Assembly (NCBI GenBank): GCA_014654775.1
Contig: JACVZW010000059.1
Location: 50,341-114,340, forward strand
Length of the DNA: 64,000 nt
Direction: 5' to 3'
Origin: Paracoccaceae bacterium
Lineage (GTDB): Bacteria; Pseudomonadota; Alphaproteobacteria; Rhodobacterales; Rhodobacteraceae
Under the pieces are notes generated by a model. It ran no database searches. It had not been told where the DNA came from and saw only the letters and a program-made list of their open reading frames with translations. Positions 6,693-25,702 of the stretch are shown piece by piece. The stretch's first letter is position 1, and the number at the start of each line of letters is the position of its first letter. Position numbers and translations under genes: made by a program.

Positions 6693-6714
6693 TCGGTATT
6701 CCTCCCTGATGCAG

Positions 6715-6768
6715 GGATGGGCGGATCGCCCATCCTACGGGCCTGTAGGATGGGCCATTGGCCCATCC
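6715..6768. repeat. Overlapping triple inverted repeat (REP-like) between mcl and mtkA
   Basis: GGATGGGCG-GAT-CGCCCATCC; GCCCATCCTAC-GGGCCT-GTAGGATGGGC; GGATGGGCC-ATT-GGCCCATCC; arms shared between hairpins. Confidence 0.75.
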
Positions 6769-6778
6769 CCGGCTCTGG

Positions 6779-17952: not shown

Positions 17953-18031
17953 CGAAAAATTTTCGTCCGAAAATTTTTCGCACCGCTCTGCCTTGGCAGA
18001 GCGGCGAAGATTTTTCGGACGAAAAATCTTC
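17953..18031. repeat. Three consecutive perfect palindromic hairpins
   Basis: CGAAAAATTTTCG-TC-CGAAAATTTTTCG; CCGCTCTGCC-TT-GGCAGAGCGG; GAAGATTTTTCG-GA-CGAAAAATCTTC. Confidence 0.9.
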
Positions 18032-18042
18032 CTTCGCGGGCT

Positions 18043-18354
18043 TCAGCCCGCGCGGCGCAGCAGCAGGTAAAGCGGCAGGCCACAGCTGACCCCGATGCAG
18101 AAGGTGGCCGGGATGGCCACCAGCCCCCGCCAATTCCGCTGCGCGATGCATTCCGCGATCACCCAGACGGTCAGGGTGACGGCGGCGATGGTCAGGTCCC
18201 ATGTCAGCCCCGTGGTGGAGGCGTTGACATACCATGCGTCGATCAGACCCGAGAGGCCCGTCCCTGTCTCGCGCATGTAGGTGACGAACCAGTACATCGG
18301 ATGCACCGCACCCCAGACGGCCAGTGCCAGCCAGACCCAGCGCATCGGTGTCAT
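18043..18354 (-). CDS. DUF2834-like small membrane protein
   Basis: MTPMRWVWLALAVWGAVHPMYWFVTYMRETGTGLSGLIDAWYVNASTTGLTWDLTIAAVTLTVWVIAEC; start overlaps upstream lipoprotein stop. Confidence 0.75.
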   Translation of the reverse strand: MTPMRWVWLALAVWGAVHPMYWFVTYMRETGTGLSGLIDAWYVNASTTGLTWDLTIAAVTLTVWVIAECIAQRNWRGLVAIPATFCIGVSCGLPLYLLLRRAG

Positions 18355-23983: not shown

Positions 23984-24709
23984 ATGGCACGAGTGGCTTT
24001 GGTGACGGGTGGTTCGCGCGGGATCGGTGCCGCGATTTCGGTGGCGCTGAAGGCGGCGGGCTACAAAGTGGCCGCGAACTATGCCGGAAACGATGAGGCC
24101 GCGGCGGCCTTCACCAAGGAGACAGGCATCCCGACCTACAAGTGGTCGGTCGCGGATTACGATGCCTGCGTTGCGGGCATCGCCAAGGTCGAGGCCGAAG
24201 TCGGGCCGGTGGATGTGCTGGTCAACAATGCGGGCATCACCCGTGACGCCATGTTCCACAAGATGACGCCGCAGCAGTGGAAAGAGGTGATCGACACCAA
24301 CCTGACGGGTCTGTTCAACATGACCCATCCGCTCTGGTCGGGGATGCGGGACCGCAAGTTCGGGCGCGTAATCAACATCTCCTCCATCAACGGTCAGAAG
24401 GGGCAGGCCGGGCAGGCCAACTATTCCGCGGCCAAATCGGGCGATCTTGGCTTCACCAAGGCGCTGGCGCAGGAAGGCGCGCGGGCCGGGATCACGGTCA
24501 ACGCGATCTGCCCGGGCTACATCGCGACCGAGATGGTGAAGGCGATCGACGAGAAGGTGCTGGCCGAACGCATCATCCCGCAGATTCCTGTGGGCCGTCT
24601 TGGCGAACCGGAAGAAATCGCGCGGACCGTGGTCTTCCTTGCCGCCGATGAGGCGGGCTTCATCACCGGATCGACGATCTCGGCCAATGGCGGGCAGTTC
24701 TTCGTCTGA
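23984..24709 (+). CDS. phaB: Acetoacetyl-CoA reductase
   Basis: SDR: MARVALVTGGSRGIGAAISVALKAAGYKVAANYAGND...YSAAKSGDLGFTKALAQEGARAGITVNAICPGYIATEMVKA. Confidence 0.94.
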   Translation: MARVALVTGGSRGIGAAISVALKAAGYKVAANYAGNDEAAAAFTKETGIPTYKWSVADYDACVAGIAKVEAEVGPVDVLVNNAGITRDAMFHKMTPQQWKEVIDTNLTGLFNMTHPLWSGMRDRKFGRVINISSINGQKGQAGQANYSAAKSGDLGFTKALAQEGARAGITVNAICPGYIATEMVKAIDEKVLAERIIPQIPVGRLGEPEEIARTVVFLAADEAGFITGSTISANGGQFFV

Positions 24710-24730
24710 TCCCGGCGTTTCGAATGGACA

Positions 24731-24761
24731 GGCCCGCGCCCGGCGCGGGCCTTTCTCTTTT
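24731..24761 (+). terminator. Rho-independent terminator of phaB
   Basis: GGCCCGCGC-CCG-GCGCGGGCC then TTTCTCTTTT. Confidence 0.8.
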
Positions 24762-24783
24762 GTCCCGCACCCGCTAGAGAAAC

Positions 24784-24827
24784 CAAAAATCTTCGAAGAT
24801 TTTTGCAAATTTCTTCGAAGAAATTTG
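24784..24827. repeat. Two abutting perfect 22-bp AT-rich palindromes
   Basis: CAAAAATCTTCGAAGATTTTTG immediately followed by CAAATTTCTTCGAAGAAATTTG. Confidence 0.95.
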
Positions 24828-24838
24828 GCGGGGCAGGG

Positions 24839-25702
24839 ATGACGACGACACGCGCAACGGCCATCGGCTTTACCGCCGTCCTGATGTGGGCGCTTCTGGC
24901 GCTCTTCACCATCGGGTCCGCCCCGGTGCCGCCCTTCCTTCTGAACGCCTTGACCTTCGGCATCGGCGGCACGCTGGGCCTGATCTGGACCTTGCGGAAC
25001 GGGCTGGACCGGCTGCGCGGTATCTCTTGGCGCGTTTATGCCTTCGGCATCATTGGCCTGTTCGGCTACCACGCGCTCTACTTCACCGCCTTCCGCATCG
25101 CGCCTGCGGCGGAAACCGGGCTGATGGCCTATCTCTGGCCGCTCTTCATTGTGCTCTTCGCCAGTTTCCTGCCCGGAGAGCGGCTGCGCCCGATGGTCCT
25201 GATCGGGGCCCTTATCGCCTTTGCGGGCGCGGCGCTTATCGTACTGGGGCGCGACTCCGGCGGGGCGGCCACCCCGCTTGGCCTGTTCTTGGGCTTTCTC
25301 TGCGCGATCACTTGGGCGGGCTATTCCACCCTCTCGCGCCGTCTGGGCGACGTGCCCACGGAAAGCGTCACCGTCTTCTGCCTTGGCACGGCGCTGCTAT
25401 CGGCGCTGGTGCATCCGATGGTGGAGGAAACCGTCTGGCCCGCCACAAGCTTGGGCTGGCTGTCCATTCTGGCGCTGGGCATCGGGCCGGTGGGCGCGGC
25501 CTTCTTCACATGGGATATCGGGATGAAGAAGGGAGACATCCAACTTCTCGGCGTCGCCTCCTACGCGGCGCCCCTGCTGTCGACCCTTGCCCTTGTCGTC
25601 GCGGGCATCAGCCCGGCATCGTGGACAATCCTCGGCGCGGCGGTGCTGATCACGGGGGGGGCGGCGCTGGCGGCCCGGGCGGGCACCAGCGCCGGGGACT
25701 GA
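24839..25702 (+). CDS. EamA/DMT-family transporter
   Basis: MTTTRATAIGFTAVLMWALLALFTIGSAPVPPFLLNALTFGIGG; about 10 TM, internal duplicated EamA-like domains. Confidence 0.9.
   Translation: MTTTRATAIGFTAVLMWALLALFTIGSAPVPPFLLNALTFGIGGTLGLIWTLRNGLDRLRGISWRVYAFGIIGLFGYHALYFTAFRIAPAAETGLMAYLWPLFIVLFASFLPGERLRPMVLIGALIAFAGAALIVLGRDSGGAATPLGLFLGFLCAITWAGYSTLSRRLGDVPTESVTVFCLGTALLSALVHPMVEETVWPATSLGWLSILALGIGPVGAAFFTWDIGMKKGDIQLLGVASYAAPLLSTLALVVAGISPASWTILGAAVLITGGAALAARAGTSAGD

Follow-up and report, generated by a model that had tools for sequence, protein, structure and literature searches.

Two perfect palindromes lie back to back in the gap between a phaB-like gene and a transporter gene on a contig of a Paracoccaceae bacterium, and we asked what such a pair represents. 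The first-pass annotation had offered two answers: a dimeric operator or RBS-masking structure controlling the transporter, or a copy of a mobile palindromic repeat. The whole stretch of DNA analyzed, hereafter the window, is 64 kb long, and the features of the locus are listed below.

23984 to 24709, plus strand: short-chain dehydrogenase gene, phaB-like (PF13561/PF00106).
24730 to 24762, plus strand: GC-rich hairpin (24730-24752) and T-rich tail, terminator-like, 3′ of the phaB-like gene.
24775 to 24779, plus strand: TAGAG, part of a TAnA(G/A)-type box, a possible −10 element of a transporter promoter.
24784 to 24805, no strand assigned: F1 unit A, perfect 22-bp palindrome CAA-AAATC-TTCGAA-GATTT-TTG.
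24806 to 24827, no strand assigned: F1 unit B, perfect 22-bp palindrome CAA-ATTTC-TTCGAA-GAAAT-TTG, with no spacer after unit A.
24839 to 25702, plus strand: EamA/DMT-family transporter gene (PF00892), 287 aa.

The description of two abutting, perfect, zero-spacer 22-bp palindromes proved exact. CAAAAATCTTCGAAGATTTTTG (24784-24805) and CAAATTTCTTCGAAGAAATTTG (24806-24827) are longer than any other perfect palindrome without a spacer in the window, where the next has 18 bp, and the core they were said to share, TCTTCGAAGA, occurs twice in the window versus 0.04 times expected, a count reached in none of 100 shuffles. Their reported siting was likewise confirmed: the pair follows the phaB terminator, with its hairpin and T-run, and 11 nt separate its end from the ATG at 24839 of a gene whose EamA identity is given by a PF00892 match. 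Judged from similarity at the transporter locus, the source genome belongs to a Tabrizicola-like member of the Rhodobacteraceae.

On sequence comparison, the pair is best read as one copy of a dispersed element, which we call F1. Other copies in the source genome show that both palindromes are variants of one unit, CAA-N5-TTCGAA-N5′-TTG, two of which abut without a spacer to give an element of 44 bp. The search of the genome and its relatives that had been recommended for the core palindromes returned 56 exact single units in the source genome (backwards control, 0) and 33 two-unit elements when up to 3 mismatches were allowed (controls, 0). Units were present in 18 of the 19 genomes of the genus, at 0 to 69 copies each, and were rarer outside it; the full 44-bp pattern with at most 2 mismatches was found in 19 of 199 sampled genomes of the family, or 18 of 198 genera. 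Nearly all copies have zero spacer. Some genera have GC-rich stems with GG, CC, or GC as the two center bases, so that neither AT-richness nor the exact center is required. Searches of open-access literature on palindromic repeats of Rhodobacter and the Rhodobacteraceae turned up no account of F1. We also note that a record titled Exiguobacterium profundum (CP059262.1; L116) contains a clearly rhodobacterial locus with F1 elements and is probably mislabeled.

Similar wording at 17953-18031 had been taken as support for a family. That region comprises the following features.

17953 to 17980, no strand assigned: F3 hairpin 1, CGAAAAATTTTCG-TC-CGAAAATTTTTCG.
17983 to 18004, no strand assigned: GC-rich hairpin between the two F3 hairpins, CCGCTCTGCC-TT-GGCAGAGCGG.
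18006 to 18031, no strand assigned: F3 hairpin 2, GAAGATTTTTCG-GA-CGAAAAATCTTC.

The resemblance held for the architecture and failed for the sequence: since the loops are TC and GA instead of a zero-spacer TTCGAA core, and since a GC-rich hairpin stands between the AT-rich ones, the region is not an F1 copy but a member of a sister family, F3, that has only its architecture in common with F1. F3 (window 17953-18052; G009:C11:543392-543468) consists of AT-rich hairpins with TC, GA, or TA loops around a GC-rich hairpin; 15 such hairpins occur in the source genome, and many members of the genus have none. When 1.25 Mb from five genomes was scanned for hairpins next to one another, 56 pairs were returned (shuffled controls, 0), among them some ordinary GC-rich hairpins and several distinct AT-rich families with at least two neighboring hairpins of unlike stems. 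A further design, F2, is formed by unlike pairs of CG-N5-TG-N3-CA-N5′-CG hairpins (G009:C11:447197-447293; also L076, L077, and L081, in the phaB-transporter gap), often with two pairs, their loops in inverted orientation, flanking a GC-rich hairpin; there are at most 12 strict matches per genome and none in the source genome. Rows of three hairpins with long stems of ∼13 to 21 bp, all different and with AT-rich tops, were seen at G008:C1:3024376, G005:C1:1067774, and G007:C1:716258. In the window itself, a neighboring hairpin pair at 6705-6778 with common GGATGGGC...GCCCATCC is possibly a further repeat family.

We determined the location of F1 relative to genes called with a home-made codon model trained on 1.25 Mb of the genus. 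All but one of 113 placed elements, a set that includes orthologues and whose counts are thus not fully independent, lay outside called genes, 43 between convergent, 60 between co-directional, and 9 between divergent genes. Compared with 261 background gaps of similar size, convergent gaps were enriched (43/112 versus 44/261; p=1.5e-5) and divergent gaps depleted (9/112 versus 86/261; p=1.2e-7). The median distance from F1 to the nearest stop codon was 4 nt, versus 17 nt when positions in the same gaps were drawn at random, and 51 of the 60 elements in co-directional gaps lay in the half nearer the upstream stop. Which of the two units faced the nearest stop followed no consistent rule; AAGTT/ATTTC leaned one way (p=0.02), with orthologues counted repeatedly. 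The window copy, 74 nt behind the phaB stop, is an exception to the usual siting.

Dispersal was evident in genome G145, where eight unlinked sites, most of them lying immediately behind a stop, carry an identical 44-mer, AATCC|AAGTT, with unrelated flanks except for one marginal 44-bp match to a further site. The unit of dispersal is therefore the heterodimer. Together with the dozens of copies per genome and their variable presence, this bore out the mobile-repeat half of the original proposal. Most copies have nonetheless been inherited, as 23 of the 33 source-genome elements have an orthologous element in G009; fewer were matched among the sampled elements of G012 and G013. One G009 element corresponds to short empty sites in G000 and G002 with no duplication, and direct repeats at F1 ends were no longer than those obtained with shuffled partners, giving no sign of target-site duplication. 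Comparison of the 44-mer with plasmid records gave no match. RAYT (Y1_Tnp, PF01797), the usual mobilizer of REPs, was rejected as the mobilizer of F1: it was over the cut-off in 0 of 19 genus genomes, although positive controls were detected. Across 226 element ends, no unpaired GTAG or CGTC tag was recognized as adjoining F1; GTAG or CTAC lay within 8 nt of 3 ends, and CGTC was near 13, compared with 9 at both control distances.

The two partners of an element are almost never alike. Among 125 elements from four genomes, identical unit pairs numbered 0 against 18.1 expected under random pairing (0 of 5,000 shuffles), and only 3 pairs, versus 47 expected, had one difference or fewer over the five free positions, a figure approached by none of the 5,000 shuffles. 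The ban on identical partners is thus near-absolute. RNA folding offers a reason for it: the 20-bp hairpin of a homodimer has −23 kcal/mol, and the most that an A-B pair attains is an interrupted fold of −14 to −15. For A-B, the best RNA structure is a single long hairpin with interruptions (−14.0) and not a pair of hairpins, and a lone 22-nt hairpin has −5.9 kcal/mol. Long perfect palindromes are targets of SbcCD as DNA and of endoribonucleases as RNA, an argument that has been applied to REP heterodimers; in the REP literature, the preference of dimeric palindromic repeats for unlike partners is an open question (PMC3733652). For F1, we propose that each unit acts as a small hairpin of its own, and that identical units would create one perfect palindrome of 40 to 44 bp, expected to be deleted by an SbcCD-type activity or, as RNA, cut by an RNase III-type enzyme.

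Within units, pairing is kept while sequence changes. The free stem positions of 250 units varied widely, almost always as complementary pairs, whereas the fixed positions were set by the search pattern and carry no information on conservation. At pair 5, for example, 142 units had TA and 99 had AT, and 6 were non-Watson-Crick. Mismatches concentrated at the center pair (26 of 250 units), as for a loop. Orthologous elements told the same story, with 18 base pairs changed on both sides, all of them Watson-Crick, where ∼1.5 two-sided changes of any kind were expected, and 40 one-sided changes, 12 of them at the center. Between G000 and G009, identity was 97.3% within F1 and 72.2% in adjacent intergenic DNA. 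Strand-specific wobble, looked for as a sign of RNA selection, was rejected: imperfect pairs read on the gene-sense strand in co-directional contexts comprised 12 G·U and 11 A·C, with no bias, so that selection on F1 at the RNA level is not supported. Template switching can create and maintain hairpins, which then, like F1, have perfect stems whose two sides change together (Monttinen and Loytynoja 2022, PMC8794818); that study concerned RNA genes, whereas F1 is a dispersed intergenic element, for which this mutational route is putative. Selection for a hairpin and template-switch repair both predict the paired changes and the high identity of F1. We propose that template-switch repair in replication, combined with purifying selection, probably maintains the complementarity of the arms.

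Taken together, these data place F1 among REP-like repeats, with many dispersed and mainly extragenic palindromes (33 elements in the source genome) and stems kept through compensatory change. We hold with considerable confidence that it is a REP-like dispersed heterodimeric hairpin element, and class it as a variant with an unusually strict heterodimer rule. Enterobacterial BIMEs are likewise composite palindromic units near gene ends, but they differ from F1 in sequence and unit length, and F1 lacks spacers. MITE-type repeats share with F1 a noncoding, dispersed, palindromic nature; F1, however, is only 44 bp long, showed no target-site duplication, and had no parent transposon that we could find. 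The GTAG/CGTC-tagged REPs (Di Nocera et al. 2013, PMC3733652) are closest, being short multicopy extragenic palindromes, often dimeric and in many families preferentially heterodimeric, yet F1 has no adjoining tag, its units abut, identical partners are strictly excluded, and no RAYT exceeded the cut-off. At its usual sites, F1 may act as a direction-indifferent gene-end boundary that limits read-through or protects RNA 3′ ends. Such a role would suit convergent genes, since a palindrome reads alike from either side, but a 3′-end function is a tentative prediction that we rate somewhat below an even chance. We commit ourselves to the boundary role only moderately, because G·U pairs show no bias, the hairpins taken singly are weak, and F1 neither replaces ordinary terminators nor is associated with them. 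The full statement, in which a REP-like heterodimer with an unlike-stem rule probably marks 3′-end boundaries and has perhaps been co-opted in the window copy, we judge slightly more credible than its negation.

A selfish or neutral repeat would explain much of the same evidence. F1 would then be spread by some mobile machinery and land behind stops, where it does least harm, with no cellular function, and its palindromes would be perfect only because template switching rewrites one arm from the other. The lack of wobble bias, the variable presence of copies, with G000 and G002 having empty sites, the range of 0 to 69 units within one genus, and the documented ability of template switching to keep stems perfect all fit this account. 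It is less easily reconciled with the excess identity of orthologous copies over their surroundings, although template-switch repair could explain part of that, with the recurrence of double hairpins of different sequence at the phaB-transporter site across genera, or with the closeness of F1 to the stop even in roomy gaps. We regard this account as unlikely but deserving of serious consideration.

Bidirectional intrinsic terminators also lie behind stop codons and are enriched between convergent genes, and F1 hairpins, being equal on both strands, might be predicted to end transcription from both sides; at one site, relatives lacking F1 have ordinary GC-hairpin terminators. The hallmark of a GC-rich stem followed by a T-run was, however, absent from F1: its stems are AU-rich and weak, its 3′ flanks are not rich in T, and the second hairpin has no U-tract after it. 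Several sites, that of the window copy among them, carry an ordinary terminator as well as F1, and the frequency of ordinary terminators was not clearly altered, with recognizable terminators behind 6 of 128 F1-tagged genes versus 39 of 508, neither clearly rarer nor commoner. The notion that F1 replaces ordinary terminators was rejected on these counts. A canonical terminator role is thus not supported, and we consider termination from both sides an improbable explanation.

The window copy could instead be specific to the transporter, a pair of 5′ stem-loops predicted to make up most of the 5′ UTR and to set the stability or translation of the EamA mRNA, with the 3′-end copies unrelated to its role here. 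F1 is kept at the same spot, just upstream of the start, in 11 genomes of the genus and, with changed loops, in Gemmobacter caeni; G012 and G006 carry a paired change in unit B, from T-A to C-G, and in most of the genus a TAnA box lies 4 to 12 nt upstream of F1. Pseudogemmobacter (L119, L122) has a different double hairpin, CCGGAGTTTT.. and CCGTTTCC.., at the position, just upstream of the transporter start, that F1 occupies in the window. Against a transporter-specific role, a consensus sigma-70 scan upstream of the transporter found no promoter, G014, G002, and G008 carry a second hairpin family in this gap in place of F1 and further members of the genus carry neither, and most F1 copies are not in leaders. 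Rfam covariance models gave 0 matches to the window at gathering thresholds. Masking of the RBS found no support in the sequence: the purine-rich stretch preceding the ATG lies outside both palindromes, though in the best predicted structure of an 89-nt fragment of the leader, some of this stretch pairs with sequence farther upstream. A role confined to the transporter therefore strikes us as hardly probable. A regulator bound to two adjacent 22-bp dyads and controlling the transporter, as first suggested, is very improbable: the 22-bp spacing would put both dyads on one DNA face, the CAA/TTCGAA/TTG positions are fixed, and the window copy is conserved near a start codon, but the free positions covary from arm to arm, which protein half-sites do not require, pairing is lowest at the center, F1 is depleted from divergent gaps with their promoters, and copies lie behind many different genes, most just behind stops and not in promoters.

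We thus favor the REP-like heterodimeric element, with the window copy as a conserved and unusual case that lies behind the phaB terminator, would form most of the probable 5′ leader of the transporter, and has perhaps been co-opted as a 5′ stem-loop. A broader and more doubtful idea is that the Rhodobacteraceae possess an untagged class of gene-end elements built of tandem hairpins, with F1, F2, and F3 among others, in which only the loops, the feet, and the rule of two different stems are conserved while stem sequences turn over freely; these would be functional, mobile gene-boundary signals, read by a dedicated paired-hairpin factor and spread by some copying system. F1 is a warning against taking such palindromes for operators, and it suggests a small mobile element, so far undescribed, for which no transposase is recognized. 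It also provides a natural experiment on the avoidance of like partners in dimeric palindromic repeats, in which the near-absolute rule and the paired stem changes would allow limits on stem length, template-switch repair, and 3′-end function to be separated with simple constructs.
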